Shown here one piece after another: positions 17,341 through 55,915 of a stretch of 64,000 nucleotides of DNA. Position numbers and translations under genes: made by a program. The stretch is from Adineta ricciae (Eukaryota > Rotifera > Eurotatoria > Adinetida > Adinetidae), in the NCBI GenBank assembly GCA_905250025.1, contig CAJNOJ010000372.1, forward strand, positions 24,856-88,855, in the 5' to 3' direction. Position 1 is the stretch's first letter. Each line of letters starts with the position of its first letter. A model generated the notes under the pieces. The model made no database searches, was not told where the DNA came from, and saw only the letters and a list, made by a program, of their open reading frames with translations.

Positions 17341-17640
17341 ATCTGGATTTTGTGGCAAAGAAATCAAATAAATCGAATTGTCTTCTGCTGACAGAGTTGT
17401 TTTAGACGGTGTTATTACTTTTTCACCGGAGTCAACGATATGTGCTTCTCGAAGAGACGAACAATATTTCCAACTAGTATTGTCATTGATAACAAGTGAT
17501 CATTCACGGGGGATACACAGAAAGACAACGAAGGCGTTAAGAAGTTGTCATCTTGCATCCAATTCGAACTAAAAGGTATACCTCCATTCGTACTTCGATC
17601 GATGACGTTAATGGTTGGCGTTAGAAACAAATATCTAACT

Positions 17641-18279
17641 CAAGTTTGAATGTCAATAGGTATTTCGAAAACAAATCTTCGTATAAAATTGATTGTGAAA
17701 GAGAAGATTGTCTGAGTTAGAAATACATCTAGCTCGTATTCAGTCACAGATGTGTGTATTATTTTAAAATGTAGAGAAATGAATACTGCCACTGATGAAT
17801 AGAAATCTTTTCTAAAAAGTCAAAATATCAGTGTAGGAGTATTCAATCTGCATTGAGAAGAAGAGAGTGTAAAAAGATCGCCCAATTTTATATTCTGTTA
17901 AAAAATAATTCTACTGTGGATTTTGATCTTGCACATCATATGTATTTCATCGCGATTGAAAAATCTGATGTTGCTATAATGATAGCTTAAACGATCTCTT
18001 GATTGTCAAGCAGTTGATTAGTTTAAATGACTAAATTCATCAAGTTTCACAGTAAAACACCTTTTAATATTATGAGATTCAATGTGAATCCTTTTACATG
18101 TGCTGATATTATTCACGTAAATTGTGTATGAATTCGATCATTTATTTGGTAAATTCTTGAAAATGAGGATGTTTACCTGCCACCCTCACCTTCGCATCAC
18201 AAACTTAAACAACATCTACACATGGTTTCAAGTTAAATAAATTTTTAAAAGCATGTTGATCGGTTCTCCGCTGTTGAGC
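17641..18279. other. 3' flank of receptor gene A, no gene
   Basis: AT-rich and conserved in copy B (44510-45165). No coding frame is shared between the copies. Confidence 0.45.
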
Positions 18280-19287
18280 TCAGACATCTGCTGCACCCGT
18301 TGGTACTGCTCTTCTCGCAGGTACGACAGTAGATCCCAAAGGCAGTTGTCTTGCTGACATGCAAAAAATCTTTTTGATCACCTTGCGTAGTTCGGGATAT
18401 TGACTTAAAGATGTGAACGGAAACAGCAACGTAACGAGATAACTGAAAAAATAGAAATAACTGCTAGCTTGAACGCCATACTGTGACGGTAGGCCGCATA
18501 GATGAGCGAACGTAATGAGGTAGATCGGCAGATTAATACACATGTTGACACCGGACACCAAACATAGTTGGATAATCATTCGTTGTTGCTTCCGCCATTG
18601 ATCAGATTGACGAAGACGTCGCTTCTGCCATTGAACGCGTAGAATAAGGCCAATGCTAACAACACTCTCCAATATAATTGGTGCACAGTTATTGGCAAAC
18701 AAATCCCATTCGCCAAAAACACCATAGGATTGATAACAAGGAGACTCACCACATACTGGCACTGTGTAATCATACCCATTTTCACAAGGTATAAAGAAAA
18801 AGGCGATGATATAGAAGACAAGAGTGTATATGACGAGAACAACCAGAGGAAGGTAATGAAAAAGAAAACGTCTTCTTCGATTCATTATCCATCGATAATG
18901 AAATATTAAAATATGCCGTTCGATGGCCATCCAAGCCAAGAGAATAACACCTCCGTTATAAAAAGTAATGTCAATAAACCACCAAGTGAGACAAGCAGCT
19001 GGACTCGAGGGTTGCAGAAGACCATTCTGATAAGCATTGAGATACAAAATGATATCCGGCAATTGAACCGGTAGATTTATGAGAAGGATAACGAGAATCG
19101 TATGATTCTGTAATGCATGTCGCCGAGCTCGATTGGTGACGATATGGATAATGATACAGAAAGTGCAGACGACAGACGGAACATCGATTACAAGTAGAAA
19201 CCAGAAACGAGCCACACGCGGTGGAGAAATTTCTGAATCTCCGGATGAAGCATTGCCATCGTTATTAGAGCTGTTGATTGTAGACAT
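18280..19287 (-). CDS. Rhodopsin-like seven-TM receptor, copy A
   Basis: A single-exon, 335-residue receptor. The start is the ATG at 19287 (MSTINSSNN), because copy B begins at the same place and the upstream in-frame extension (to 19518) is not shared. It has a Ser/Asn-rich N-terminus with a possible N-glycosylation site, then seven hydrophobic segments. After TM3 there is IERHILIFH, in the position of the DRY motif. Cys residues in the TM3 region (AACLTWWF) and in extracellular loop 2 (PCENGYDY..CGESPCYQ) could form the usual disulfide. TM7 ends LFPFTSLSQYPELRKV instead of NPxxY. The ligand is unknown; peptide- or chemo-receptor type is a guess. It pairs with 45166-46176. Signalling through G proteins at the plasma membrane is family knowledge. 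Confidence 0.85.
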   Translation of the reverse strand: MSTINSSNNDGNASSGDSEISPPRVARFWFLLVIDVPSVVCTFCIIIHIVTNRARRHALQNHTILVILLINLPVQLPDIILYLNAYQNGLLQPSSPAACLTWWFIDITFYNGGVILLAWMAIERHILIFHYRWIMNRRRRFLFHYLPLVVLVIYTLVFYIIAFFFIPCENGYDYTVPVCGESPCYQSYGVFGEWDLFANNCAPIILESVVSIGLILRVQWQKRRLRQSDQWRKQQRMIIQLCLVSGVNMCINLPIYLITFAHLCGLPSQYGVQASSYFYFFSYLVTLLFPFTSLSQYPELRKVIKKIFCMSARQLPLGSTVVPARRAVPTGAADV

Positions 19288-20180
19288 ATTCTGACAGGAG
19301 TGAAAAATATGAAAATGAACGATATTTTTTATTTGATTTCTGCATGAATGTAGTGTCAGCATGAATATCATGAATTTAGTTTGGCAGATGTTTATCTGCC
19401 GCGATGGACCGAAGTTCGGCATTAGACGTAAAAAGAGAAAATCAGTCAAATCAGGGAGAATTCTGGTAAACATAAATTGTTTAATATGTCTCCTTGCTTG
19501 ATTGAAAATAGAGCCCAAACGAAAAGATATTTTTTCTTATGCCGATTAATTGAAGAATAATCACAGAAAAAGCAATGCGAATGTTGTATGTGCATCATCA
19601 GTAATACATGATGACATGAATAGTCTTGTCGTTTTTCATTCAACCATTCCGACAAATATTTTTTCGAGCGGAAAGGGGGATGGTTTTTTCTCTCTCTCTC
19701 TTCACAAGATGGTATGAAATCTCACGTTGCCTATCAAATATTGACTAACGAAAAAAAAAGAGAAAACTAAGGCTTCTCTGTAGAATTCAATGCATATTAC
19801 CATTGTTGAAACGTCTAGATCGCTTTTCGAGAAAAAATTGTAGAGTAAATCACAAGCTGATTATATGATCACGTGACATCGAGTAGCGTCAAGGATGAAA
19901 TCAAATATCGAAACAGAATTTATGCGATTTCAATATTACATACATATTATAATCTCCTTTTCAAAAAATCGTTTTAACTTTCACTACGATTATAGATTAC
20001 AGATAGATCAAAGCACTACAACATGAGATGTTTGTAAGCCTTTCGTTACCGAACATAATTTCACTTTTTGTCTGTGTTGGTTCTCAACGATTATAGTATT
20101 TAATCACGGTAAAAAAATCTCTGACTTCGCAGAAAAAGCGAGCAATACATCACTAAAAAGTATCCATTGGATGTTTAAGT
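19288..20180. other. Intergenic, conserved between copies, no gene
   Basis: 5' region of receptor A. It holds a CT-rich microsatellite near 19690 and no coding frame conserved with copy B. Confidence 0.45.
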
Positions 20181-20744
20181 CTATTGAGATTTCTGTCGTT
20201 GTTGCTTTTCCAATGAGTAATTTCGTCGTTTCCAAAACCATTGTAAGACATTGAATGTGAAAAGACTCACTGAGGCGATTACAGCTGACATCTTCACTAG
20301 TCCAAAGTAGCAAGCCAAGTTCATAACAAAATCATTTCGTTCCGGGAAAATTTCCAAAACATATCTCTCCGCAATATTTTCCAGATAATCAAAAACCATG
20401 CAGACCAATGGAGCAATTAGATAGTAACGCCCTTTTCCAAACGCGATATTTGATGAACTTATTGACAAAAACATTAGAAATGGGAAAACAAAATCGACAT
20501 AATTGACTAAACGGTACGCATTACGTCCACCTTCACCCAGGTTCGATAGCACTTGGTATCCTTCATCAGCAGTGTAATAAGTCATTGTGTCAAGAACTGT
20601 TGGTATGGTGGTTAAGGAGGCTGAAATAGTATAATCGTTCAGTGGTTTCGCGAGAAAATAGAGATTAATGGTCGTTAAAGACCACAAGAGTAGAATAATG
20701 TAAATATTATCCAACGATTTCAGAAGTTTATAAAGTTGTTTCAT
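20181..20744 (-). CDS. Four-TM membrane protein of unknown function, copy A
   Basis: 187 residues from the ATG at 20744 (MKQLYKLLKSLDN); copy B confirms this start. Four hydrophobic segments are visible: about 15-33, 85-105, 112-130 and 150-170. After TM1 lies a soluble loop with a striking motif, TYYTADEGYQVLSNLGEGGRNAY. This Y-x-x-x-E-x-Y ... G-x-x-G-R pattern reminds me of small bacterial four-helix membrane proteins that carry a similar YGxxGR loop, so bacterial origin is possible, but I cannot name a family with certainty. The C-terminus is basic and Gln-rich. Eight of 187 residues differ from copy B, mostly at the ends, and the loop motif is unchanged, which suggests constraint. Confidence 0.75.
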   Translation of the reverse strand: MKQLYKLLKSLDNIYIILLLWSLTTINLYFLAKPLNDYTISASLTTIPTVLDTMTYYTADEGYQVLSNLGEGGRNAYRLVNYVDFVFPFLMFLSISSSNIAFGKGRYYLIAPLVCMVFDYLENIAERYVLEIFPERNDFVMNLACYFGLVKMSAVIASVSLFTFNVLQWFWKRRNYSLEKQQRQKSQ

Positions 20745-21536
20745 GGTAATCGCAAAAAAATACTGTATAATAAGCTTGCTTACTATAACTGTCACGCGGG
20801 TGTCTATGTTCGTTACCTTTTCTTATATACATAGACGACGAAGTTTATTGATTTTTTTTCTGCATTCTGTCCTTGCACTAAAATAACACCACGTTGCACG
20901 ACTTTTCTTCTTCTCTAATCACATTTTTTGCGAAAGAACGTGGTATATATTCGGGTAGGCGAAATCAACACAATTATAGTTATTCGTACGAAAAGTTGAA
21001 GGGGACCCTCGTTCTTTCCAATTTTAACCAATACAAGAATCAATAAAGACTAAAAATAATCTATTTGATATGCAAAGGCTCCTTCGATAGTTCTATAAGC
21101 ACATCAAAACTTAAATATTACACTCAATATTGTACCAAAACCATGTTTTTGGCATTGATACATACCTATTTCAGCTATGGGAAATATGTTAAAAGCTACT
21201 TAAGTAGTTTTAACAAGGATAATATTTAAGAGCATTCCAATATAGCTTTTTGTCTTCACGGTTCGAACTCTTTGAATAGATTCTCGCATGTAGTGGTCTA
21301 AATCCATGTAATGAAATCCCAATCATGATTCATTTGACACACATACACCTCATGCTGATAAAAGAAATATTATCTCATATAACGTCATACGACTTCGTTT
21401 TTCGTATCATGTACTTATCTATATTCTTTGACATGACTCATCGATAAACAAACGGAATCTTTAAAAGCGCATCTAAAACAAGGGCAAATGATTCATATTA
21501 CTTCTTATCGACAGCTTCATAGGACTTTCTGTATTC
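20745..21536. promoter_or_regulatory. Divergent intergenic region between the 4-TM and S33 genes (copy A)
   Basis: 792 bp separate two divergently transcribed genes, and the arrangement is repeated almost unchanged at 47675-48464. Position and conservation suggest both promoters lie here. I see no convincing TATA box or named operator. Confidence 0.35.
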
Positions 21537-23225
21537 ATGTTAGTTGTTTTCACGTTTCCTATTTTTCTTACTCTTCAACTGGCAAAAGCTGGAGCGATTA
21601 ATTATGTTCCATTGAATGGTTGCCAATGGTCTAATTGCAATGTGGACGATGCAATTCCACCTCTTGCAAATTACTCAATTGATTGTTGTGAACTCAAAGT
21701 TCCTCTCAATTATGCCAAGACAAATGGAACGAAGATTTCTATATCAATGACACGTCTCACTCCTTCCAATAAGAATCATACCACGAACAATACTCTTTTC
21801 TTTCTGACAGGTGGCCCAGGTTCATCCGGTTGGACGGCCATTCAATATATACCAATTCTTTTTCCAGCACATTACGGTATAACTGTTATACTTCCTGATC
21901 ATCGTGGTGTTGGACTGTCAACTCCATTGACTTGTGATGATCATGGATCACAGAATCTAACCATTGACTGTATTTCTTATTTGACTTCAAAATGGAGTAT
22001 AGATGGTTTAAATCAATTTTCAATTACTTCAGCAGCTCAAGACTTGTCAGTTCAAATTCATTCTTATCAATCTGTCAGTTCTGGTCGCGTGTCCGTCTAT
22101 AGTTTGAGTTATGGAACCATATGGCTCGATCGTTTTCTTCAGATCTATCCAAATATGGTTCAGTCAGCTATTATGGACGGTGTTATGCATCCACAACTGT
22201 TTTCTATGAGTCGCTATGATCTTTGGACATCATTAGTTGCTTCGCGATTTTTAGGTTACTGTCAATTTCAACCGGAATGTAATCGATATTTTCCTGTCCA
22301 TGAACCACCTCAAATAATGCTAGCTAGGATACTTAAGGAAGTAGATCAAAACAACCAACCATGTATTAATGATCATCTTTTGCAATATCATATAACTAGC
22401 GATAAGCTTCGAGGTCTATTTCGTGGTTTGATGTCATCGAGCCGCTCATTTTATAGTCGTACTGTTATACCAGCCGTTATCTTTCGTTTAAATCGTTGTA
22501 ATTCTGATGATGTCAAAATACTGAATTTTTTCTTCAAAGCTACTCTTGAAAGAACAGAAAAGTTAAGCGAAAGTCGTTCAACTCCTCCGCCCGCACTTTA
22601 CGATTCTCTTGTACTCGGTTTTAACATAATTCAATCAGAACTTTGGTTAGGTAAAGATGAAGAAGAAGTCGACGAAGGAACACTATCCGCTTGGCATAAT
22701 TCAACATTAATGGCTCTTGAAAATTTTAAACTGTTTACATCTCTACGATCTGTATGGCCTAAGTATCCATTAGATGAATATTATCACAGAATAGCCATTA
22801 ATGCAAACGTACTAATGTTATCAGGTCAACTCGATCCAGCAACACATCTTGATTATGCTACTCATCTTGCAACAATGACACGTAAATCACGAACATTTTA
22901 CACTATTCCATTGGTTGGCCATGTCGCTATTCTTACAACAGTAGTTGATTATAAATGTCCACTAAAACTTATTTGTTCATGGGCATTTCCAAATTTATTT
23001 CCATCTGAATGGAATGATCCAAACTGTATCCAGGAATTTCCAACGACGATAGATTTTGTTGGAAATGGTGAAAAAGAGCAAGAATATTCGATAATGTACT
23101 TGAATATATCAAAACCATTTGAAGATATTAACTTAACAACTCCGTCGGGTTCAAATGTTCGCTCAATAAGTGCATACCAGTTCCTCACATACTTTGTACT
23201 AGTATTTCTAACATTGTTTATCTAG
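21537..23225 (+). CDS. Peptidase S33 / tripeptidyl-aminopeptidase-like hydrolase, copy A, likely GPI-anchored
   Basis: 562 residues in one exon. An N-terminal hydrophobic stretch to about residue 20 is a signal peptide. The alpha/beta-hydrolase core shows TGGPGSSG (residues 91-98, oxyanion hole), LPDHRGVGLS (119-128), the nucleophile elbow SLSYG with Ser191, Asp433 in SGQLDPATH and His462 in GHVAI. The triad is complete and spaced as in S33 (prolyl/tripeptidyl aminopeptidase) enzymes, with a C-terminal TAP-like part. The first Gly of the usual G-x-S-x-G is Ser. The protein ends with a hydrophobic tail of about 15 residues (FLTYFVLVFLTLFI) and no cytoplasmic residues, typical of a GPI signal. 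Expected role: extracellular release of short peptides. It differs from copy B at 12 residues, none catalytic. Confidence 0.85.
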   Translation: MLVVFTFPIFLTLQLAKAGAINYVPLNGCQWSNCNVDDAIPPLANYSIDCCELKVPLNYAKTNGTKISISMTRLTPSNKNHTTNNTLFFLTGGPGSSGWTAIQYIPILFPAHYGITVILPDHRGVGLSTPLTCDDHGSQNLTIDCISYLTSKWSIDGLNQFSITSAAQDLSVQIHSYQSVSSGRVSVYSLSYGTIWLDRFLQIYPNMVQSAIMDGVMHPQLFSMSRYDLWTSLVASRFLGYCQFQPECNRYFPVHEPPQIMLARILKEVDQNNQPCINDHLLQYHITSDKLRGLFRGLMSSSRSFYSRTVIPAVIFRLNRCNSDDVKILNFFFKATLERTEKLSESRSTPPPALYDSLVLGFNIIQSELWLGKDEEEVDEGTLSAWHNSTLMALENFKLFTSLRSVWPKYPLDEYYHRIAINANVLMLSGQLDPATHLDYATHLATMTRKSRTFYTIPLVGHVAILTTVVDYKCPLKLICSWAFPNLFPSEWNDPNCIQEFPTTIDFVGNGEKEQEYSIMYLNISKPFEDINLTTPSGSNVRSISAYQFLTYFVLVFLTLFI

Positions 23226-23266
23226 GGTGATTGTACGGTTAAAGATGTCAACACACGTATTTAGCC

Positions 23267-23580
23267 TCAGTTCGAGCAGAAATTTTCAGATTTGGATTTC
23301 TGCGTATATTGAAACTGTACTGGAAAGGATGTTAAGTTTTTTATAAACATTATTATCGATGGGTGGGTGAGGGTAGATGACCGTTGAGTGCCCGAGTGCG
23401 CTTTGTGGTTGATGTTTTCGTCGTTATGAAGAAAAGTAGAACAGATGCGATCTTCGCATCGCCAGTACTTCACTTTCCCATGATTCTGGTTTAATGTGTA
23501 GATATATTCATCGTACGGAGCCACACGCCTTCCCTTTGTCGTCTTACTAAACTTGAGGATAGTCGTGCTATAGTTGCCAT
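23267..23580 (-). pseudogene. FLYWCH-type zinc finger, copy A (frameshifted at the start)
   Basis: The minus-strand frame contains YIYTLNQNHGKVKYWRC, then DRICSTFLH and a C-terminal His-containing part, the layout of a FLYWCH finger (aromatic core, W-R-C, second Cys, two His). The orthologous ATG (MAT, 23580) is present, but a 2-nt insertion after codon 3 (ACTATAGCACG versus ACTAGCACG in copy B) moves the downstream finger out of frame. The in-frame finger has no ATG of its own. Compared with copy B it retains the second zinc Cys and has a 12-residue segment before the C-terminus that B lacks. FLYWCH fingers are often found in DNA-binding or transposase-derived proteins. Confidence 0.65.
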
Positions 23581-23934
23581 GATGAAGGAAAAGGATCCTG
23601 TATATATAGCAGGACAGGTTGATTCACCGATACTACGCCTATCAGCGAGCGAAACGTTAGCCAATTAATACGAAAATGCTCATAATTTATTGATAAACTA
23701 CATATACGTACGAGCATAAAGACAAAAGGTAATAAAATAATAATATATTACGGTTAAAAGATTGATTTTTGACGCAATGAATAGTTGACGGAATACCCAT
23801 CGATAAGATGTTTGTTGACAAACGGTGCTGTCGATGATTGATATGTGATTCTTGTCGAGAACGAACAAATTCGGCATAAACAATATCATCAACGCGTTTT
23901 ATTTTTTGTGCTTTTGTAATCTGAACATTAATGT
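23581..23934. other. Intergenic, no gene
   Basis: Shared with copy B (50471-50933), which has about 110 extra bases here. No conserved reading frame. Confidence 0.4.
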
Positions 23935-24133
23935 CGGCCTGTCCACGCAAAACGTGATTCCGTCACGCTGTATTTTTTGAATTATTTATAAGGAAAGTAA
24001 CCCTAGGATCCCAGGAGCTCATAATTTTGAACATTCAATTGTGCTTAACAAAACCTGGTTTCGGACAATTACAATCAATTTTCCGCTCATTCAGAGCAGC
24101 GTGACGGAATCACCCTTCTCCGTGGACAAGCTG
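23935..24133. mobile_element. ~200-bp terminal-inverted-repeat element, present only in copy A
   Basis: Copy B reads straight from aacattaatgta to ttgcttgatgcag, whereas copy A has about 199 bp inserted. Inside are exact inverted copies of gtgattccgtcacgctg (23954-23970 and 24097-24113) and imperfect outer arms (tgtccacg / cgtggaca). It has no coding capacity, so it is a MITE-like non-autonomous DNA transposon. The target duplication is short or unclear (possibly GT), so the superfamily is not assigned. Confidence 0.8.
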
Positions 24134-24199
24134 TGTATTGCTAGATGCAGCGTAATTACTCTTAATATTCTATTTTATGGTCAGCTTGACCGTTTTTTA

Positions 24200-24740
24200 A
24201 AGAAAGTTTATCGACGTCTTATCAAAAGAAAAGGAATGAGAAAGAGGCATTCTTCCAATGATACGAGATGAAGGAATGATTTTTGCATCACGGGGAGCAT
24301 TAGATCGAGGCAATTTCAAAACGCAAGAACAAATTGAAGACATGGAGACGGCTGGCGAGATAGGAAGATCATCTATTTGGCCGCTCGAAGCTAATGAATA
24401 ATGATTCTGGAGCGTTTTTTATGTTATATACCCAAATATTCCTAGGTCCATCCGAACAAGATCGAGCGACGATTGTGGCATTAAGCCAAAGTGCACTTGC
24501 TTATGTTATGGTGAAACAACCGTATATCTTTCCCATTGTTGGTATTCGAAAACCGAAACCTTTGTGAGGTAACATTAACGCGTTGAAAGTAAGTTTAAAT
24601 AAAGAAGAAATCAACCGCACATGTGATTTCAAACTTGGCTATCTGTTTGATTGTATGGATAGGTATCCAGGTAAAAAATGGCTCATAGAAGCGACTGGTA
24701 ACCATGATTGAACGGAATGGCCTGAAAGTATCGATGTAAG
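24200..24740 (+). pseudogene. Aldo-keto reductase (aryl-alcohol dehydrogenase-like) relic, copy A
   Basis: In one frame, RGILPMIRDEGMIFASRGAL is followed by GNFKTQEQIE. After stops and a frame change come LGPSEQDRATIVALSQSAL, AYVMVKQPYIFPIVGIRKP, a TGA, then GNINALKVSLNKEEI. These match the C-terminal half of fungal-type NADP aryl-alcohol dehydrogenases (AKR superfamily): the P-M-x-x-x-E-G-M strand, the PIVG-x-R-K cofactor-binding loop, and the G-N-I-x-A-L helix. Upstream catalytic parts (the Asp/Tyr/Lys/His tetrad) are missing and several stops interrupt, so it is dead. Fungal affinity is recognised from motif memory; transfer from fungi is inference. Confidence 0.7.
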
Positions 24741-25001
24741 ATAATGTCAGACAAATATGTAGTTAATTATTGATTAGTATTCTTGTCACTTATATCAAGA
24801 GATACGCAAATATGAATATCGTTTGTGTTGTCAAAAACTCCACCTACGTTTTTACCTCCACTCATTTTATTTCAGAAAAATAAGCATGAAATAAACTACA
24901 TTATATGGTGTTTTTCATTAGCATGAGAGTGAAATTTTTCTTCTGAGAATGTTTTCACTTACTTATTTGTTTAATTAAATCAACGTGACCCCGCAACACA
25001 A
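24741..25001. other. Intergenic, no gene
   Basis: Conserved with copy B; no feature recognised. Confidence 0.35.
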
Positions 25002-25169
25002 ATGAACACAACGATAGAACAACCATTTTCTAAATTGGATGACGATCGGTCTTCTCATACGAATACAACAACGAAAATCAGAAGAGCTGAAAAATGCATA
25101 GCTGTATGTAACTGCTGTTATCACTTTTGCTGCATAATTTTAAGTTGTATAGACTTTTTTGAACAATAA
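25002..25169 (+). CDS. 55-residue Cys-rich small ORF, copy A
   Basis: ATG 25002 to TAA 25167-25169. It encodes a Ser/Thr/Asp N-terminal half and a Cys-rich hydrophobic end (CIAVCNCCYHFCCIILSCIDFF). The same 55-codon frame is preserved without indels in copy B (51624-51791). Of about seven substitutions, four change a residue, so selection is not proven. No family recognised. It could be a small membrane-associated or palmitoylated protein, or a leftover exon. Confidence 0.35.
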   Translation: MNTTIEQPFSKLDDDRSSHTNTTTKIRRAEKCIAVCNCCYHFCCIILSCIDFFEQ

Positions 25170-25410
25170 TAAAACCAAAATTTACCTTTTATTCGAAAAC
25201 AATGTTTGCTCTTGCTATCATAGCGTAGGAAACCACACGAATACTTACATTCGAAGTGTATAACGAACCTCAGCTGACTACAGTATAAGACGTGCTACCG
25301 GTCCTACTTACAGGTCCATTAGACACTATCATTCTTGCCATCTACTTTTCCTTTCGTGTAGTTTTACACTGATTCAAACTCGATGCGCATAGTATCAATA
25401 TTTTTTCCGT

Positions 25411-25884
25411 TTATGGTGCAGAAAAGGTAATTGGCGTATGACCGATCAGTATAATGATACGAGTGTCGAATATAACATCTATTTTGATCAATTTTCCTGA
25501 ATTCTTTTTGCACACATATTTTTTATTACAAACAGCACATTCCTTCGCTTTCATTGAACAGTAAGTAGAACGCTCTGATTTAGATTGATCACATTCGAAG
25601 AGAATAAATTCGAGGCTCGAGACATCTATCGTAGTCTGAAAAATTCTTTGAAGGTCTTGTAGTATTACACTAATACTCTGTTCGAAACAGTGCAGCCGTA
25701 TCGAAAGTATATCCGGATTTTGTACACATTCTTCTATGTTAATTTTTGTAGTGGGCATCAGAGTAACTACGGAAAAGCTCTCCAATGAATCCAAAACAGA
25801 AGTGAAATACAAATCGGGCAAAAAGTTCCTGGAAATCAAGCTAATGAATATCGTTGAATCAACTAGTCGCTTGAACGGGATCAA
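25411..25884 (-). CDS. 157-residue protein of unknown function, copy A (5' part broken)
   Basis: The same 157-codon frame exists in copy B (52030-52503) with about 20 differences. It has a hydrophobic/helical N-terminal part and a C-terminal Cys cluster (YCSMKAKECAVCNKKYVCKK) that could bind metal. Neither copy has an ATG at the start: the frame opens at TTG. Upstream sequence (ELNNAFIDQMKLIVDS in B) continues in another frame, with the octamer GTTGATTC duplicated 22 nt apart in B and nearly so in A. That suggests an ancestral 22-nt duplication causing a frameshift, or an unusually short intron. Copy A also has a TAA just before that upstream part. Probably an old pseudogene; a real spliced gene is possible. 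Confidence 0.4.
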   Translation of the reverse strand: MIPFKRLVDSTIFISLISRNFLPDLYFTSVLDSLESFSVVTLMPTTKINIEECVQNPDILSIRLHCFEQSISVILQDLQRIFQTTIDVSSLEFILFECDQSKSERSTYCSMKAKECAVCNKKYVCKKNSGKLIKIDVIFDTRIIILIGHTPITFSAP

Positions 25885-26368
25885 CGATCAATTTCATGCG
25901 ATCAATAAAAGCGTTATTCAGTTCAAAAGCAATGCCAGTGAACGTTTGACATTACATTGAGAAATAGACGCTAGACTCGGTATGAAAGAGAAAAACTACT
26001 TCTGTGATTTTTTTCTTTTGTTTTAGATAGACACACGAAAAACTTTTAATAACAAATTTTGCTTACTTTCTCTTCTGTAGAGAAGGATTTTTCCCAAATA
26101 TAAGAACAATATTCTAATAAAAAACGCTTGCTTTAATAATTGCACTGTGGTTAGGTAGTGTCAGGGACAGGCTGAATATATAGTGCGTTAACTTTTTTTA
26201 TTTGTCTAGTTGAGTTAAACTGACTCTCGGAGTTTCAGGTAGAAAAAGCACAATTGTGCAGCGTACTCAACAGAAAAAGAAATTGTAAAATATACACATA
26301 TACATTATTTGCTTCATTCCATAACAAGTACTATTCATAGGCTTCTTTCGTTATATTTGTGAGATAAT

Positions 26369-26785
26369 ATGATCATATCAATTACTTTTCTTTTTCTGAA
26401 TCTGGTTATCATCTGTGCAAATGTCATAGCTATTATTGGTTCTATTAGGAGCGCAGTATACGCTTCCAATGTCACGACTACTGTTATCGACTAGAACAAT
26501 TCCTGTTCAGAATATGTTTGTGGTGCATTCTTGTCAAACATTCTATCTTATGTATTAGGATTGAATTCTTATTCTAATAATAAAAAATGCCATTCATTTG
26601 CCAATTATTCATCATCGAGAAGAATAATCACGGATCTCGACTCGACATCTGTATCTATACAACAGTCGCCATTTCTAAATGAGACTAAAAGTCAATGTAA
26701 AGCGAGTATTTGCCTAAGAATAGGTATAGGCGTTAGTGTCTCTGTTATACACATCAGCACTTACACTCCCATCCGACTCTTTTAA
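26369..26785 (+). pseudogene. Secreted/membrane ORF interrupted by a TAG shared with copy B (copy A)
   Basis: From ATG 26369 a 41-codon frame encodes a hydrophobic leader (ITFLFLNLVIICANVIAIIG) and an Asn/Thr-rich segment, then hits TAG at 26492-26494. The same frame stays open for another 96 codons, with Cys and Asn-Xaa-Ser/Thr sites typical of an ectodomain, to 26785. Copy B has the identical TAG (53101-53103). So the stop predates the duplication, or it is functional. I call it a pseudogene with modest confidence; stop readthrough is the alternative. Confidence 0.4.
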
Positions 26786-26846
26786 TTGTGCAAGTTTTGT
26801 TTATTTTTTTGTTTCGCTCAGAAGCATGAATTATACCGATCAATAT

Positions 26847-28249: not shown

Positions 28250-28588
28250 GCTTAGATTTCGTTTAACAAAAAAATAATCTTTTCTCGCTAATGTAATAGA
28301 CTGACGTAGCTTTTGTTATGATAAAACTTTATATGTCAAGTACGATGAATCATCAACAAAGCCAAAAGCAAATATGAATGATGCTATATCGTTATCGTCG
28401 ACTTTCGTTTTCTCTTCTGTTAGCTTTGTTATTAATCATATGTACCGAGAAAAGAATGATGTCAATACTTAAAACTATTGAAGAACGACATAATTCATCG
28501 AGCTATCCCCACTAGCTGCAAAGTGATTGAAAACTTGAATAGAACCATATAGAATGCACCAAATAGATTTTTGTTAAAGAATAGATTT

Positions 28589-44155: not shown

Positions 44156-44161
44156 ATTATT

Positions 44162-44324: not shown

Positions 44325-44347
44325 GGGGGGGGGGGGGNNNNNNNNNN
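44325..44347. other. Poly-G run and 10-N assembly gap
   Basis: Thirteen consecutive G are followed by ten N, immediately left of duplicated block B. The left junction of copy B is therefore not observed. Confidence 0.9.
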
Positions 44348-46176: not shown

Positions 46177-47110
46177 ATTCTGACAGGAGTGAAAAATATG
46201 AAAATGAACAACACTTTTTTTTATCTATTTTCTGCATGAATGTAGTGTCAGCGTGAAAATCATGAATTTAGTTTGGCAGATGTTTATCTGCCACGATGAG
46301 CCGAAGTTCGGCATTATACGTAAAGAGAGAATCAGTCAAGTAAATAAATCTCTATCTCTCTCTTGTCGAGGAGAATTCTGGTAGACATAAATTGTTTATA
46401 TGTCTCCTTGGTTGATTGAAAATAGAACCCAAATGAAAAGTTTTTTTTTCTTATGCTGATTAATCGAACAATAATCGCAGAAAAGACATTGTGAACGCTG
46501 TATGTGCATCATCAGTAATACATGATGACATGAATGGCCTCGCCGCTTTTCATTCAACCATTCCGACAAATATTTTTCCGGGCGGAAAGGGGGATGGTTT
46601 TTTCTCTCTCTTCACAAGATGGTATGAAATCACACGTTGCCTATCAAATATTGACTAACGGAAAAAAAGAGAAAACTAAGGCTTCTCTGTAGAATTCAAT
46701 GCATATCACCATTCTTGAAACGTCTAGATCGCTTTTCAAGAAAAAATTGTAGAGTAAATCACAAGTTGAATATATGATCACGTGACACCGAATAGCGTCA
46801 AGGATGAAATCAAATATCGAAACAGAATTTATGCGATTTCAATATTACATAAATATTATAACCTCAGGGTAAGTTATAACTTTTGATTTTTCAAAAAATC
46901 GTTTTAACGTTCACTACGACTATAGATTACAGATAGATCAAAGCTGTACAACATGAGATGTTTGTAAGCCTTTCGTTACCGAACATAATTTCACTTTTAG
47001 TCTGTGTTGGTTCTCAACAGTTACAGTATTTAATCACGGTAAAAAAATTTCCGCCTTCGCAGAAACAGCAAGCAATACATCACTAAAAAGTATCCATTAG
47101 ATGTTTAAGT
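46177..47110. other. Intergenic, conserved between copies, no gene
   Basis: Homologous to 19288-20180, with small indels only. Confidence 0.45.
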
Positions 47111-47674
47111 CTATTGAGATTTCTGTTGTTGTTGCTTTTCCAATGGGTAATTTCGTCGTCTCCAGAACCACTGTAAGACATTGAATGTGAAAAGACTCCC
47201 TGAGACGATTACAGCTGACATCTTCACTAGTCCAAAGTAGCAAGCCAAGTTCATAACAAAATCATTTCGTTCCGGGAAAATTTCCAAAACATATCTCTCC
47301 GCAATATTTTCCAGATAATCAAAAACCATGCAGACCAATGGAGCAATTAGATAGTAACGCCCTTTTCCAAAAGCGATATTTGATGAACTTATTGACAAAA
47401 ACATTAGAAATGGGAAAACAAAATCGACATAATTGACTAATCGATACGCATTACGTCCACCTTCACCCAGGTTCGATAGCACTTGGTATCCTTCATCAGC
47501 AGTGTAATAAGTCATTGTGTCAAGAACTGTCGGTATTGTAGTTAAGGAGACTGAAATAGTATAATCGTTCAGTGGTTTCGCGAGAAAATAGAGATTAATG
47601 GCCGTTAAAGACCACAAGAGTAGAATAATGTATATATTATCCAACGATTTCAGAAGTTTATAAAGTTGTTCCAT
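47111..47674 (-). CDS. Four-TM membrane protein of unknown function, copy B
   Basis: 187 residues from ATG 47674 (MEQLYKLLKSLDN). Same four membrane segments and the same loop motif (YTADEGYQVLSNLGEGGRNAY) as copy A; 8 residues differ, 5 of them in the last 35 (for example NYPLEKQQQQ for NYSLEKQQRQ). Transcribed away from the S33 gene across a 790-bp shared intergenic region, as in A. Function unknown; the preserved frame argues that both copies are, or recently were, functional. Confidence 0.75.
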   Translation of the reverse strand: MEQLYKLLKSLDNIYIILLLWSLTAINLYFLAKPLNDYTISVSLTTIPTVLDTMTYYTADEGYQVLSNLGEGGRNAYRLVNYVDFVFPFLMFLSISSSNIAFGKGRYYLIAPLVCMVFDYLENIAERYVLEIFPERNDFVMNLACYFGLVKMSAVIVSGSLFTFNVLQWFWRRRNYPLEKQQQQKSQ

Positions 47675-48464
47675 GGTAATCGCAAAAAAATACTGTATAA
47701 TAAGCTTGTTTACTACATGTGTCGTGCGGGTGTTTATGTTCGTTACCTTTTCTTATATACATAAACGACAAAGTTTATTGAATTTTTTTCTGCGTTCTGT
47801 TCTTGCACTAAAATAACACTGCGCTGCACTGCTTTTCTTCTTCTCTAATCAAATTTTTTGCGAAAGAACGTGGTATATATTCAGGCAGGCGAAATCAACA
47901 CAATTATAGTTATTCGTATGAAAAGTTGAAGAGGACCCTCGTTCTTTCCAATTTTAATCAATACAAGAATCAATAAAGACTAAAAATAATCGATTTGATA
48001 TGCAAAGACTCCTTCGATAGTTCTATAGTCACATCAAAACTTAAATATTACACTCAATATTGTACCAAAACCATGTTTTTGACATTGATACATACCTATT
48101 TCAGCTATGGGAAATATGTGAAAAGCTACTCAAGTAGTTTTAACAACGATAATATTTAAGAGCATTCCAATATAGCTTTCTCTTCACGGTTCGAACTCTT
48201 TGAACAGATTCTCGCATGTAGTGGTCTAAATCCACGTAATGAAATCCCAATCATGATTCTTTTGACACACATACATCTTATGCTGATAAAAGAAATATTA
48301 TCTCATATAACGCCATACGACTCCGTTTTTCGTATCATGTACTTATCTATATTCTTTGATATGACTCATCGATAAACAAACGGAATCTTTAAAAGCGCAT
48401 CTAAAACAAGGGCAAATGATTCATATTACTTCTTATCGACAGCTTCATAGGACATTCTGTATTC
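47675..48464. promoter_or_regulatory. Divergent intergenic region (copy B)
   Basis: Homologue of 20745-21536. Only small substitutions and short indels (for example TTTTTGTCTTC versus TTTCTCTTC near 48178). Probable bidirectional promoter region; no motif assigned. Confidence 0.35.
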
Positions 48465-50153
48465 ATGTTAGTTGTTTTCACGTTTCCTATTTTTCTTACT
48501 CTTCAACTGGCAAAAGCTGGAGCGATTAATTATGTTCCATTGAATGGTTGCCAATGGTCTAATTGCAATGTGAACGATGCAATTCCACCTCTTGCAAATT
48601 ACTCAATTGATTGTTGTGAACTCAAAGTTCCTCTCAATTATGCCAAGACAAATGGAACGAAGATTTCTATATCAATGACACGTCTCACTCCTTCCAATAA
48701 GAATCATACCACGAACAATACTCTTTTCTTTCTGACAGGTGGCCCAGGTTCATCCGGTTGGACGGCCATTCAATATATACCAATTCTTTTTCCAGCACAT
48801 TACGGTATAACTGTTATACTTCCTGATCATCGTGGTGTTGGACTGTCAACTCCATTGACTTGTGATGATCATGGATCACAGAATCTAACCATTGACTGTA
48901 TTTCTTATTTGACTTCAAAATGGAGTATAGATGGTTTAAATCAATTTTCAATTACTTCAGCAGCTCAAGACTTGTCAGTTCAAATTCATTCTTATCAATC
49001 TGTCAGTTCTGGTCGCGTGTCCGTCTATAGTTTGAGTTATGGAACCATATGGCTCGATCGTTTTCTTCAGATCTATCCAAATATGGTTCAGTCAGCTATT
49101 ATGGACGGTGTTATGCATCCACAACTGTTTTCTATGAGTCGCTATGATCTTTGGACATCATTAGTTGCTTCGCGATTTTTAGGTTACTGTCAATTTCAAC
49201 CGGAATGTAATCGATATTTTCCTGTCCATGAACCACCTCAAATAATGCTAGCTAGGATACTTAAGGAAGTAGATCAAAACAACCAACCATGTATTAATGC
49301 TCATCTTTTGAAATATCATATAACTAGCGATAAGCTTCGAGGTCTATTTCGTGGTTTGATGTCATCGAGCCGCTCATTTTATAGTCGTACTATTATACCA
49401 GCCGTTATCTTTCGTTTAAATCGTTGTAATTCTGATGATGTCAAAATACTGAATTTTTTCTTCAAAGCTACTCTTGGTAGAACGGAAAAGTTAAGCGAAA
49501 GTCGTTCAACTCCTCCACCCGCACTTTACGATTCTCTTGTACTCGGTTTTAACATAATTCAATCAGAACTTTGGTTAGGTAAAGATGAAGAAGAAGTCGA
49601 TGAAGAAACGCTATCCGCTTGGCATAATTCAACATTAATGGCTCTCGAAAATTTTAAACTGTTTACATCTCTACGATCTGCATGGCCTAAGTATCCATTA
49701 GATGAATATTATCATAGAATAGCAATTAATGCAAATGTACTAATGTTATCAGGGCAACTCGATCCAGCAACACATCTTGATTATGCTACTCATCTTGCAA
49801 CAATGACACGTAAATCACGGACATTTTACACTATTCCATTGGTTGGCCATGTTGCTATTCTTACGACATTAGTTGATTATAAATGTCCACTAAAACTTAT
49901 TTGTTCATGGGCATTTCCAAATTTATTTCCATCTGAATGGAATGATCCAAACTGTATCCAGGAATTTCCAACGGCGATAGATTTTGTTGGAAATGGTGAA
50001 AAAGAGCAAGAATATTCGATAATGTACTTGAATATATCAAAACCATTTGAAGATATTAACTTAACAACTCCGTCGAGCTCAAATGTTCGCTCAATAAGCG
50101 TATACAAGTTCCTCACATACTTTGTACTAGTATTTCTAACATTGTTTATCTAG
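48465..50153 (+). CDS. Peptidase S33 / tripeptidyl-aminopeptidase-like hydrolase, copy B, likely GPI-anchored
   Basis: 562 residues, intact. Oxyanion GGPGSSG, nucleophile Ser191, Asp433 and His462 are all kept, as are the signal peptide and the terminal hydrophobic tail. I count 12 substitutions relative to copy A: D37N, D279A, Q283K, V310I, E338G, G381E, V406A, V469L, T504A, G538S, A546V and Q548K. None lies in a catalytic motif; several cluster in the C-terminal stalk before the anchor signal and in the lid region (279-381), where substrate preference would be set. Expected to act outside the cell on short peptides. The first ~750 nt of the gene are almost unchanged between copies while the 3' half carries most differences. 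Confidence 0.85.
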   Translation: MLVVFTFPIFLTLQLAKAGAINYVPLNGCQWSNCNVNDAIPPLANYSIDCCELKVPLNYAKTNGTKISISMTRLTPSNKNHTTNNTLFFLTGGPGSSGWTAIQYIPILFPAHYGITVILPDHRGVGLSTPLTCDDHGSQNLTIDCISYLTSKWSIDGLNQFSITSAAQDLSVQIHSYQSVSSGRVSVYSLSYGTIWLDRFLQIYPNMVQSAIMDGVMHPQLFSMSRYDLWTSLVASRFLGYCQFQPECNRYFPVHEPPQIMLARILKEVDQNNQPCINAHLLKYHITSDKLRGLFRGLMSSSRSFYSRTIIPAVIFRLNRCNSDDVKILNFFFKATLGRTEKLSESRSTPPPALYDSLVLGFNIIQSELWLGKDEEEVDEETLSAWHNSTLMALENFKLFTSLRSAWPKYPLDEYYHRIAINANVLMLSGQLDPATHLDYATHLATMTRKSRTFYTIPLVGHVAILTTLVDYKCPLKLICSWAFPNLFPSEWNDPNCIQEFPTAIDFVGNGEKEQEYSIMYLNISKPFEDINLTTPSSSNVRSISVYKFLTYFVLVFLTLFI

Positions 50154-50194
50154 GGTGATTGTACGATTAAAGATGTCAATACACGTATTTAGCC

Positions 50195-50470
50195 TCAGTT
50201 CGAGCAGAACTTTTCAGATTTAGATTTCTGCTTTATGAACATTATTATCGACGGGTGAGTGAGGATAGATGGCCGTTGAGCGCCCGAGTGCGCTTTGTAG
50301 TTGATGTTTTCGTCGGTATGAAGAAAAGAAGAACCGGTGCGATCGTTGCATCGCCAGTACTTCACTTTCCCACGATTCTGGTTCAATGTGTAGATGTATC
50401 CATCGTACAGAGCCACACGCCTTCCCTTTGTCGTCTTACTAAACTTGAGGATAATCGTGCTAGTTGCCAT
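50195..50470 (-). CDS. FLYWCH-type zinc finger, copy B (open frame, one zinc ligand lost)
   Basis: 91 residues from ATG 50470 (MATSTIILKFSKTTKGRRV). Layout: G-R-R-V-A-L-Y-D-G-Y-I-Y, KVKYWRC, FLH and a distal His, as in FLYWCH fingers. The frame is intact, unlike copy A, but the second zinc Cys is Gly here (DRTGSSFLH versus DRICSTFLH in A, TGT to GGT), so zinc binding is probably impaired. A 12-residue segment before the C-terminus is deleted relative to A. It could be a small DNA-binding protein or a detached domain of a larger transposase-related gene. It is convergent with the S33 gene, with 41 bp between stops. Confidence 0.6.
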   Translation of the reverse strand: MATSTIILKFSKTTKGRRVALYDGYIYTLNQNRGKVKYWRCNDRTGSSFLHTDENINYKAHSGAQRPSILTHPSIIMFIKQKSKSEKFCSN

Positions 50471-50956
50471 GATAAAGGAAAAAGGAAAAGGAACCTGTAT
50501 ATATAACAGAACAGCTTGATTCACTGATACTACGCCTATCAGCGAGCGAAACGTTAGCCAATTAATACGAAAATGTTTATAATTTAGAACAAAGAAAGTT
50601 ATAGTGATCTATTTTTCTTCCTCATGTTCCGAAAAAGGAATACTTTTCATCAAAGTGGTCAGTGCAAAATTAGATTATGAGCTTAGATTTATTGATAAAG
50701 TGCATATACGTACGAGCATAAAGACAGAAGGTAGTAAAATAATAATACATTACGGTTAAAAGATTGATTTTTGACGCAATAAATAGTTGACGGAATACCT
50801 GTCGACAAGATGTCTGTTGACAAACAGTGTTGTCGATGATTGATATGCAATTCTTGCCGAGAACGAACAAATTCGGCATAAACAAAGTCATCAACGCGTT
50901 TTATTTTTTGTGCTTTTGTAATCTGAACATTAATGTATTGCTTGATGCAGCGTAAT
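50471..50956. other. Intergenic, no gene
   Basis: Matches 23581-23934 plus about 110 extra bases. It is the uninterrupted (empty) site for the TIR element of copy A near 50936. Confidence 0.5.
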
Positions 50957-51366
50957 TACTCTTAATATTTTATTTTATGGTCAGCTTGATCGTTTTTTAA
51001 AGAAAGTTTATCGACGTCTTATCAAGAGAAAGGGAATGAGACAGAGGCATTCTTCCAATGATACGAGATGAAGGAATGATTTTTGCATCACGGGGAGCAT
51101 TAGATCGAGGCAATTTCAAAACGCAAGAACAAATTGAAGCCATGGAGACGGCTGGCGAGATAGGAAGATCACCTATTGGACCGCTCAAAGCTAATGAACG
51201 ACGCGTTGAAAGTAAGTTTAATAAAGAAGAAATCAACCGCACATGTGATTTCAAACTTGGCTATCTGTTTGATTGTATGGATAGGTATCCAAGTAAAAAA
51301 TGGCTCATAGAAGCGACTGGTAACTATGATTGGGCGGAATTGCCTGAAAGTATCGATGCAAGTTAA
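50957..51366 (+). pseudogene. Aldo-keto reductase relic, copy B (internal deletion)
   Basis: A frame with ATG 51058 encodes 102 residues: MIRDEGMIFASRGALDRGNF and TQEQIEAMETAGEIGRS, matching the C-terminal region of aryl-alcohol-dehydrogenase-type AKRs. It then jumps to NKEEINRTCDF and LIEATGNYDWAELPES. Relative to copy A about 180 nt (24399-24578), which encode the PIVG cofactor loop, are deleted. One further base is also lost, which by chance returns the tail to the same frame. The cofactor-binding and catalytic parts are missing, so it is not an enzyme even though the frame is open. Confidence 0.65.
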
Positions 51367-51623
51367 CGTCAGACAAATATGTAGTTACTTATTGATCAAT
51401 ATTCTTGTCACTCATATCGAGAGATACGCAAATATGAATATCGTTTGTGTTGTCAAAAACTCCATCTACGTTTTTACTTCCACTCATTTTATATCAGAAA
51501 AATAAGCATGAAATAAACTACATTATATGTTGTTTTTCATTGGCATGAGAGTGAAATTTTTCATCAGAGAATGTTTTCACTTACTTATTTGTTTAATTAA
51601 ATCAATGTGACACCGCAACACAA
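51367..51623. other. Intergenic, no gene
   Basis: Homologous to 24741-25001. Confidence 0.35.
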
Positions 51624-51791
51624 ATGAGCACAACGATAGAACAACCGCTTTCTAAGTTGGATGACGATCGGTCTTCTCATACAAATACAATGACGAAAAT
51701 CAGAAGGGCTGAAAAATGCATAGCTGTATGTAACTGCTGTTGTCACTTTTGCTGCATAATTTTAAGTTGTATAGACTTTTTTGAACAATAA
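51624..51791 (+). CDS. 55-residue Cys-rich small ORF, copy B
   Basis: Same length and frame as 25002-25169, with substitutions N2S, F9L, one Thr to Met and one Tyr to Cys. The C-terminal Cys-rich hydrophobic segment is preserved (VCNCCCHFCCIILSC). Function unknown. Confidence 0.35.
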   Translation: MSTTIEQPLSKLDDDRSSHTNTMTKIRRAEKCIAVCNCCCHFCCIILSCIDFFEQ

Positions 51792-52029
51792 TAAAACCAA
51801 AATTTACCTTTTATTCGAAAATAATGTTTATTCTTGCTATCAGCGTAGGAAGCCACACGAATACTTACATTCGAAGTGTAACAAATCTCAGCTGACTACA
51901 GTATAAGACGTGCTACCGGTCCTACTTACAGGCCCATTAGACACTATCATTCTTGCCATCTACTTTTCCTTTCGTGTATTTTTACACTGATTCAAATTCG
52001 ATGCGCATAGTATCAATATTTTTTTCCGT

Positions 52030-52503
52030 TTATGGTGCAGAAAAGGTAATTGGCGTATGACCGATCAGTATAATGATACGAGTGTCGAATATAACATCTA
52101 TTTCGATCAATTTTCCTGAGTTCTTTTTGCACACATATTTTTTATTACAAACAGCACATTCCTTCGCTTTCATTGAACAGTAAGTAGAACGCTCTGATTT
52201 AGATTGATCACATCCGAAGAGAATAAATACGAGGCTCGAGACATTTATCACATTCTGAAAAATTCTTCGAAGGTCTTGTAGTATTACACTGATACTCTGT
52301 TCGAAAAAGTGCAATCGTGTCGAAAGTATATCCAGGTTTTGTACACATTGTTCTATGTTAATTTTTGTAGTGGGCATCAGAGTAACTACGGAAAAGCTCT
52401 CCAATGAATCCAAAACAGAATTGAAATACAAATCGGGCAAAAAGGTCTTGGAAATCAAGCTAATGAGTACAGTTGAATCAACTAGTCGCGTGAACGGAAT
52501 CAA
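52030..52503 (-). CDS. 157-residue protein of unknown function, copy B (5' part broken)
   Basis: Partner of 25411-25884 with the same Cys cluster near the C-terminus and the same absence of an ATG. In B the upstream frame (SSVYFSKECQ, then FELNNAFIDQMKLIVDS) is open further than in A, but it is joined to the main frame only through a 22-nt direct repeat (GTTGATTC), which shifts the frame. Either an old frameshift or an atypical tiny intron. Confidence 0.4.
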   Translation of the reverse strand: MIPFTRLVDSTVLISLISKTFLPDLYFNSVLDSLESFSVVTLMPTTKINIEQCVQNLDILSTRLHFFEQSISVILQDLRRIFQNVINVSSLVFILFGCDQSKSERSTYCSMKAKECAVCNKKYVCKKNSGKLIEIDVIFDTRIIILIGHTPITFSAP

Positions 52504-52977
52504 CGATCAGTTTCATCTGATCAATAAAAGCGTTATTCAGTTCAAAAGCAATACCAATGATGGTTTGACACTCCTTTGAGAAATAAACGCTAGACTCGGT
52601 ACGAAAGAGAAAAACTACTTCTATTACTTTTTTTTCTTTTGTTTTAGATAGACACATGGAAACAAATTTTGTTTCTTTTCTTTCTTGTGGGAAAGCACTT
52701 TTCCAAATATAAGAACAATATTCTAATAAAAAACGCTTGCTTTAATAATTGCACTGTGGTTAGATAGTGTCACGGACAGACTGAATATTTAGTACGTTAA
52801 CTTTTTTGGTTTGTCTAGTTGAATTAAACTGACACTCGGAGTTTCAGGTAAAAAAAGCACAACTGTGCAGCGTACTCAACAGAAAAAGAAACTGTAAAAT
52901 ATACACACATACATTATTTGCTTCATTCCATCACAATTACTATTCATAGGTTTTTTCCGTTACATTTGCGAGATAAT

Positions 52978-53271
52978 ATGATTACATCAATTACTTTTCT
53001 TTTTCTGAATTTGGTTATCATCTGTGCAAATGTCATAGCTATTATTGGTTCTATTAGGAGCGCAGTATACGCTTCCAATGTCACAACTACTGTTATCGAT
53101 TAGAACAATTCCTGTTCAGAATATGTTTGTGGTGCATTCTTTTCCAACATTCTATCTTATGTATTAGCACGGAATTGTTATTCTAATAATAAAATATGCC
53201 ATTCATTTGCCAATTATTCATCATCGAGAAGAATAATCACGGATCTCGACTCGACATTTGTATTTATGTAA
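52978..53271 (+). pseudogene. Secreted/membrane ORF with TAG shared with copy A (copy B)
   Basis: ATG 52978, hydrophobic leader, TAG at codon 42 (53101-53103) exactly as in copy A. The frame then continues to a B-specific TAA at 53269-53271. More decayed than copy A. Confidence 0.4.
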
Positions 53272-53479
53272 CAGTCGTCATTTCAAAATGAGACTAAAAG
53301 TCAATGAAATTCGAGTTTTTGTCTAACAGTAAGTGTAGGCGTTAGTGTCTCTGTTGTACACATCAGCACTTACATTCTCACCCGACTCTTTTAATTGTGC
53401 AAGTTTTGTTTATTCTGTCGTTTCGCCCAGAAGCATGGACAACGAGCTTAGATGCGGCATGAATTATACCGATCAATAT

Positions 53480-54882
53480 TTAGGCTATGACAGTGCGGAA
53501 TAGAAGAATAATAGAAATAAAGAGTCCAAAGAGAGTCCCTTTTGTACGGAATGCAGATGCACGAACCGGATCGGTGTCTAAACATTGAAAAAACGACACA
53601 TAAATATCTTCGTAAGTTTTCCAAATCTGTTGCGTTAAATTAATCGGTGCGTTCGTATCTGCATTTGATAGGATAATCACACCTATATTCTTCTTATTAG
53701 TGAGCATCACATGTGCCATGCCCGGCAACTCTCCAGCGTGACCAAAGTATCGATCACCTTTGTCTGTGGTTACCCAATACCAACTAAGGCCATATTCTAA
53801 TCGTCGTTGTATCGTATTATTATTAACCGGTTCTGGAGTAAACATTGGTATGACACCACAACCGACCGCTGTTCGTATTTCGGCAATGGATCGCGGATGG
53901 AGAATAGAAGATCCATTGTTGAGAAACATGCGAAGATACACGGATAAAGCACGAGCCGACATACGCCACAAACCAGCCGGATAACCACTAAGGCTGAAAG
54001 GTGAAATTTGTAGCCATGTAGGAAAATTGTCCTGAAAAGAAAACAACTAAAATCAATTCGACTAATCATTGATGTGCATTTTACCGAGATCTTTGTGATA
54101 TTCAATTGCGACATTGCATGATAATATTTTTCAAAATAGTCTACATTGGGTGCATAAGCATAGCTCGTGACAAGGTCATTTATGTTTTCAAAATCAGACA
54201 AACGTACTCCAGTTTTGGTGATATCAATACCAATTGGTTTCAGAATTTTTTCTTCGACATAATCGCTGTATCTCATATTTGCAATTCGTTCGACAACCAA
54301 TGCAGCTAGCGATGAACCCTGATTTGAATACAATGACACACTGCCGGGCGGCTTTGGCAACCAGTTCGACGTGTTCGGATTCACATATTTGAAACACACG
54401 TCAGCCAACGATTCATTGAATGCTTCGTCGCCCGGTTTAAAAAAAGTATCTTCCTCCTGGCGATTGATAGAAATCGAAGCCGAGTGCGAAAGTAACTTGC
54501 GTAGAGTAATCGAATGCAAAGGATAATGTGGATGGAAGATACGTCTCTGCGGTTCCGATAAATATTGATTAATGTCAGTATCAAGATCGACGAGTTCTTG
54601 CTCGACAAGTTGCATGACAGCGATGCCTATGAAAGTTTTCGAAATCGAACCAAGAGTGAAAATGGATTTGTCAATATCTATAGGCTCTTTTGGTGATAGA
54701 GATTTGTAGCCTACAGCTTGTTCGTAGAGTACGTGAGTAGCATTGACCACGATGATCGCAGCTCCTGGTACATGGATTTTCTCGAGAGATTGTTCTATCC
54801 ATTCTCGACTCGGGCACGTTGAACCGTTGCCAATTGCAATGTGAAAAACAAGAACGAACACAACCAACAATATATGCACCAT
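53480..54882 (-). CDS. Serine beta-lactamase-like (S12 / LACTB-type) secreted protein, copy B
   Basis: Exons 54882-54085 and 54031-53480, 53-nt phase-0 intron, 449 residues. Signal peptide; SISK (Ser79, Lys82), Tyr185-Ser-Asn187 and HAG (364-366) are intact; hydrophobic C-terminal tail. Compared with copy A, most of exon 2 from YPAGLWRMS onward is nearly unchanged. In contrast, the end of exon 1 (YAPNVDYFEKYYHAMSQL versus YASDAFYIEQWHQMMPQF), the intron and the first 17 codons of exon 2 (PTWLQISPFSLSG versus PTWLHFPYFSLST) differ strongly. That segment is likely a surface or substrate-access loop. Same inferred role: extracellular serine hydrolase of unknown substrate. Confidence 0.85.
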
Positions 54883-55220
54883 GCTTAGATGTCGTTTAAC
54901 AAAAAACTAATTTCTTTTTGCTAACGTAATAGACTGACATAGTTTTCGTTATGATAAGATTTTATATGTCAAGGACGATGAATCATGAACAGAGCCAAAA
55001 GCAAATATGAATGATGCTATATCGTTATCGTCGATTTTCGTTTTCTCTTTTGTTAGTTTTGTTATTAATCATATGTACCGAGAAAAGAGCGATGTCAATA
55101 TTTAACAGTATTGAAGAATGACATAATTCATCAAGTTATCCTCACTAGCTGCAAAATGATTGAAAACTTGAATACAACCACACAGAATACACGAAATGGC
55201 TTTTTGTTAAAGAATAGATT

Positions 55221-55314
55221 GATGGAATCAACATTAGCATGGAAGAAAATAGTACTCGATGCTATTGAAACTCGTCGATTACATATGATTGAACGTGGAT
55301 ATTATATCAAATAA
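55221..55314 (+). pseudogene. Small ORF homologous to 28589-28747, truncated in copy B
   Basis: ATG 55221 and 30 codons shared with copy A (KIVLDAIETRRLHMIERG), then TAA where A has CAA; another TAG follows. Copy B is the broken one here. Confidence 0.4.
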
Positions 55315-55915
55315 TATTGTCTGGCGTCACAATAGAAGAGCGATGATAATCTATAACAATCAACAAGCTTCAGTGGCTGATCAACAAAAAAAAAAGAGAT
55401 AATGAATCATTACATTTCACGACTTTATTGTATAACCCTTATTTCTGGACTTTTTTCTTCAAATATTTTACTTTTTCGTTTTTCGCTTCGATAACATACA
55501 GCTATATAGTCAAAAAAACATACAGATCTTATGATGCAAATATATTCTTATCAATATGCATCTTTCAAGTACTTTTGTATATATGTGACAGCTCATAGAA
55601 AATATTGCACACACTATATTTCAGTATTTCATTCTTTCAACTTGAGAAAAATACAACACAAACATCTATTATCCAGGGACTGTACGTAATTAACTATGAC
55701 ATCAATATTGATGTTTTGTAATTTTCCATCTGGAAAAATGAAAACTCAACCTCAATATTTATAGGTCCGATTGCGGCTAATCTGTAACTATCAATGGAAC
55801 CACATCTCGAACTACATACAAGAAGAGAAAGCATAGGGTTGTGGCATATATTCATGAAATTTACGCTAGTAATAAGCTTTCTTTTATTCGGTTCGCAATT
55901 ATTGCATAAATTTAG

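Follow-up and report, generated by a model that had tools for sequence, protein, structure and literature searches.

Two direct copies of a 12-kb block on an Adineta ricciae scaffold are probably alleles joined by scaffolding

Results

Gene content and extent of the two copies

We studied a 64,000-nt window of the draft genome of the bdelloid rotifer Adineta ricciae (GCA_905250025.1), corresponding to positions 24856-88855 of CAJNOJ010000372.1 (C372). C372 is 88,855 bases long with a GC content of 34.7%, and the right end of the window is therefore the end of the contig. Coordinates below refer to the window unless a contig name precedes them. Self-BLAST showed two direct copies of one block, both read here on the positive strand: A at 17482-30162 and B at 44357-55913, matching in five colinear pieces with 90.7-95.8% identity. 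This bears out the preliminary description, which had placed direct colinear copies at 17480-30165 and 44355-55915. Each copy, putatively one allele of the locus (see below), lies within a single ungapped contig, 13812-44337 for A and 44348-64000 for B. Pfam matches in the block were a 7tm_1 receptor, an alpha/beta hydrolase, beta-lactamase-like ORFs and a partial FLYWCH domain, the last one found in B, the copy searched for it. The block had been described as containing seven genes; what we compared between the copies was six ORF pairs. Between the copies, 12 of the 562 residues of the S33 protein differed and 8 of the 187 of the 4-TM protein, exactly the figures claimed before. Two indels, of 2 and 7 nt, distinguish the copies in the FLYWCH region, and another of 36 nt lies close by; the reading frame is thus shifted by the first two, in accordance with the frameshifted FLYWCH gene reported earlier.

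A global alignment of 17482-28996 with B gave 93.7% identity over 11,066 sites, with 32 indels, 515 transitions and 186 transversions; with the 3' tail included, which the aligner misplaced, identity was 92.5% over 11,315 sites. In 500-bp bins the copies differed by 3.4-13.8%, an identical tract in the S33 gene aside (see below). Two transposon insertions had been proposed in A, and three A-specific stretches were compared here. About 23933-24134 (202 bp) is present in A only, has inverted ends and has relatives on other contigs (the best 92% identical, on C925), and is therefore taken as a short inverted-repeat transposon. The segment 28997-29971, to which only 88 bp correspond in B, is likely an insertion in A, since a 77% relative on C89 matches across the B version. 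For 24399-24577, a deletion in B is more likely than an insertion in A, because a 67% relative on C114 continues through the stretch.

The assembly searched for further copies comprised 130,461,839 bases in 1033 contigs, and the queries were B 44360-47360 and B 47360-55912, for which 13 of 13 and the best 40 of 41 candidates, respectively, were scored. Among these candidates A and B were the only copies, exactly two as in a haplotig (false) duplication, and any other match either fell below 120 bp in length or did not exceed 82% identity. A true tandem segmental duplication, in which the doubling of a unit starting at 17482 was followed by about 6% of divergence between its copies and the loss of different portions from each, would agree with the direct orientation, the colinearity and the independent decay of A and B. 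That neither a third nor a fourth copy was found among those candidates speaks against it, although the searched assembly may be haplotig-reduced, in which case the missing copies would count for little. C769 was tried as an ohnologous locus and rejected, as it had only short matches of 71-77% to C372.

Contig joins and scaffold layout

The contig carrying A and the spacer is linked to the contig carrying B only by a run of 10 N at 44338-44347, and the left edge of B lies 10 bp past this run. Both edges of A and the right edge of B lie in the interior of contigs, where there are no joins. A second direct pair was found on C372, between C372:9621-22563 (copy 1) and C372:23923-38665 (copy 2). 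Most of the matching pieces have 88-97% identity, the least similar one 84%, and a single piece of 148 bp is inverted. Copy 2 starts one base after the N at C372:23922 and stops one base before the N at C372:38666. Its part within the window thus occupies 1-13810 (positive strand), and a single-N join at 13811 marks its exact right end. Within copy 2, both sides of the N at 10377 (C372:35232) carry an unmerged contig-end overlap of 207 bp, 99.5% identical, at 10170-10584 (positive strand). A 492-aa ORF at 13798-15276 overlaps the N at 13811; it has integrase zinc-binding (H2C2) and rve core domains, as in retroelement-type integrases.

The ungapped contigs of C372 are the one holding copy 1 (C372:1980-23921), four short ones forming copy 2, one with the left flank, A and the spacer (13812-44337), and one with B and its right flank R (44348-64000), so that the order on the scaffold is copy 1, copy 2, A, B. 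On C372 no ungapped sequence links A to B, or copy 1 to copy 2. In other words, gaps separate the copies of each pair, and contig ends coincide with the left edge of B and with both sides of copy 2, the edges of A and the right edge of B being internal. These observations count against a tandem segmental duplication: there is no ungapped junction, a 10-N gap stands between A and B, and the scaffold would have to hold two such events, both of which coincide with assembly joins. A single tandem duplication would moreover give the order unit-unit instead of copy 1-copy 2-A-B, although two separate duplications would not need unit order. The same layout bears on the possibility that a single chromosome truly carries both alleles, as in the ameiotic organization put forward on the basis of the 2013 Adineta vaga assembly. 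Both copies do lie on the same scaffold, but A is linked to B by the gap only, with no ungapped junction, and the scaffold would require a further tandem event in which the second copy likewise starts and stops exactly at joins.

We examined single-N joins in eight contigs (five whole and three partial), which were picked for matching the window and are not a random sample; two longer N runs were excluded. A self-repeat edge lay within 2 bp of 13 of the 18 joins, against 0.10 expected from the density of edges. All six joins of C372 had this signature, as did seven of the 12 in other contigs, and five of the 18 had none. Among the joins with the signature were unmerged contig-end overlaps of 207, 224, 221 and 130 bp, 99.5-100% identical (the last one offset by 41 bp). 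We take a single N to be a negative gap estimate of SSPACE, and the 10 N to be an artificial gap of SPAdes. If the former holds, the scaffolder itself took these contigs as overlapping. Two points here weigh against reading A and B as haplotigs, namely the five joins lacking the signature and the fact that the 10-N gap differs in kind from the single-N joins.

Three further observations concern these regions. In C769, C754, C428 and C539, repeats or unmerged overlaps also flanked seven of ten single-N joins, so that the assembly may commonly contain local duplications that are false. The match between C372:829-1847 and C372:4321-5312, a third candidate pair, was dropped as evidence since it belongs to a multi-copy family; the adjoining N at C372:1979 is still counted among the 13. 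C985:3020-4528 matched C372:7350-8877 at 90% and is perhaps a further allele fragment.

The spacer, the flanks and their counterparts

The left part of the spacer (S, 30158-37329, positive strand) was colinear with C881:16621-8758 in reverse, in pieces 94, 89, 90, 78 and 92% identical, and three ORFs in it gave Ks values of 0.110, 0.147 and 0.124. Two adjacent ORFs, 30793-31851 (352 aa) and 32005-33093 (362 aa), are 78% alike in DNA and are both kept on C881 (352 and 346 aa); neither had a Pfam match. C881 could, under a segmental duplication, continue the second unit instead of being the allele of the spacer, and this would be a point against the allelic reading as well.

The right part of the spacer (37330-44337) matched many contigs at its ends, whereas its middle matched one or two contigs partly. 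The multi-copy stretches run from about 37.4 to 38.2 kb and from about 42.9 kb up to the gap; because many contigs match the latter, about 1.4 kb of multi-copy sequence adjoins the link to B on its left. Its last portion, 44149-44337 (positive strand), is a dispersed repeat with a 99% copy at C539:40068-40256 and others of 76-95%, and its poly-G end, a run of 13 G, is directly left of the gap.

To the right of B, the sequence R (55914-64000, positive strand) reaches the contig end at 64000, and its only matches exceeding 90% fell in a repeat of the last 300 bp. Many contigs carry this repeat of about 290 bp (63709-64000), and in several of them it forms foldback-like inverted pairs whose members are about 150 bp from each other. 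Farther to the left in R, two overlapping ORFs (57469-61222) lie amid internal repeats; they had no Pfam match and have a 64% relative on C885, and an FG-GAP repeat protein (61304-62386) follows them on the other strand. For the left flank (13812-17481), no allele was found elsewhere in the searched assembly, which may be incomplete; this, together with the position of A's edges inside a contig, counts against the haplotig reading.

At its far end (C881:626-3589), C881 was colinear with C223:124770-129444 at 79-95%, and the latter is possibly the other allele of this end, judging by the alignment. The same C223 segment may be what actually follows the spacer on its right; no match of C223 to the spacer appeared among the best 40 of 448 and the best 40 of 341 candidates.

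The breakpoint between A and the spacer

Homology between A and B stops at 30162 and that between the spacer and C881 starts at 30158, so the junction lies at 30158-30162, within a transposon. The right flank R of B begins at this same point. The motif AAATTT is present at all three junctions, i.e., between A and the spacer, at the right end of B and beside position 16621 of C881, with one extra T in A. The transposon runs unbroken across the junction in C881 and in copies on C744 and C367 (78-81% identical there). C881 therefore keeps the old arrangement, and the A/spacer junction is the breakpoint of a deletion that ended inside the transposon, with 6 bp of microhomology. An insertion between B and C881 with a target-site duplication, suggested by the shared AAATTT, was dropped given the continuity of the transposon across the C881 junction. 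The stretch adjoining that junction in C881 has relatives on many contigs. In the simplest picture, one haplotype would be B-R-...-X-S', where X is the end of C881 and R would be linked to X, and the other would be A-S.

Divergence and a conversion-like tract

The preliminary description had named Ks of the paired genes against genome-wide allele divergence among its checks. Nei-Gojobori estimates for the six A/B ORF pairs were 0.157 for the receptor, 0.061 for the 4-TM protein, 0.036 for S33, 0.067 for a 158-aa ORF, and 0.144 and 0.327 for the C-terminal and N-terminal beta-lactamase ORFs. The mean was 0.13 (range 0.036-0.327), which accords with the homologue mean of 0.135 reported in PMC5916493 for A. 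ricciae, as opposed to 1.267 for ohnologues. Between copy 1 and copy 2 we obtained 0.103 and 0.087, plus 0.231 for an antisense ORF pair that is probably not a gene. All three comparisons (A/B, copy 1/copy 2, and spacer/C881 at 0.11-0.15) come close to the homologue mean and are well removed from that of ohnologues, and the divergence of the copies thus equals the published allelic divergence of the genome. In A. vaga, allelic regions have been defined by a collinear fraction of at least 0.7 and a mean Ks of at most 0.2 (PMC7749112); A and B fall within this definition with a Ks of 0.13 and colinear BLAST pieces and ORF pairs. Divergence at the allelic level (PMC5916493) argues against a segmental duplication and is also consistent with alleles linked on one chromosome. 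The high value of the beta-lactamase N-terminus (0.33) and the low one of S33 weigh against the haplotig reading.

In the S33 gene, A and B are identical over 727 bp (21645-22372), and codons 1-333 showed no synonymous differences at 239 sites and five nonsynonymous ones. From its sequence, this tract looks like recent allelic gene conversion or loss of heterozygosity, and it may instead be an assembly switch.

Discussion

We consider that A and B are two alleles (haplotigs) of one 12-kb locus, in a genome of high heterozygosity, that scaffolding has interleaved and concatenated, with a probability of about 0.88 on the evidence of sequence and assembly structure. The apparent tandem duplication would then probably be an error of the draft assembly and not an unusual chromosome structure. 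The preliminary description had offered three readings, and we favour the one in which the gap at 44338-44347 falsely connects two haplotigs over linked alleles or a segmental duplication. The order copy 1-copy 2-A-B points to interleaved haplotypes, since one tandem duplication would place whole units side by side. The B contig would have been set after the A-spacer contig because reads sharing alleles or repeats tied both to the same neighbours; the link across the 10-N gap would be false, and the 88.9-kb scaffold would alternate between two haplotypes that share one orientation, each contig being tentatively assigned to one of them.

The pair resembles the uncollapsed haplotigs of heterozygous genomes as presented in PMC8178825, where two versions of a locus are kept at allelic divergence with an edge at a contig join, and differs from the usual case in that A and B stand in one scaffold in direct order. 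Erroneous scaffolding has been reported to make artificial palindromes (PMC7953838); A and B would thus be an artefact of a known kind, here in direct order. With a tandem segmental duplication they share the direct colinear copies and lack a contiguous junction, the unit order and any extra copies found, and we regard such a duplication as unlikely.

The counts of homologous blocks on the same scaffold given in PMC5916493 are 23 palindromes and two tandem cases for the 2013 A. vaga assembly, and only two, both tandem (ARIC00305 and ARIC00659), for the 2018 assembly of A. ricciae. The latter two would suit alleles truly linked on one chromosome. In both species, though, many of the collinearity breaks described there span scaffold gaps, and a single palindrome was reported for another A. 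vaga assembly (PMC7749112). The A/B pair is like these bdelloid cases in having tandem homologous blocks on one Adineta scaffold. If the scaffold were correct, an Adineta chromosome would carry two allele-like pairs in direct order (copy 1-copy 2-A-B), with the haplotypes interleaved on one molecule; this seems very unlikely to us, and so do linked alleles of the ameiotic kind.

Reported assemblies of A. ricciae are that of 2018, with 174.5 Mb and 35.6% GC (PMC5916493), and ARIC003, with 135.6 Mb, 35.5% GC and an N50 of 283.8 kb; the assembly section of PMC7943196, which describes the latter, does not give its scaffolding method. The 2013 A. vaga assembly had 217.9 Mb and 30.8% GC (PMC5916493). 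Allele pairs on the same scaffold were once taken as evidence of ameiotic chromosomes in bdelloids (PMC5916493). The case of A and B illustrates, from the assembled bases themselves, how a draft assembly can yield an allele pair in direct order, and it suggests that gene counts and 'duplicates' drawn from this assembly need to be checked at single-N joins.
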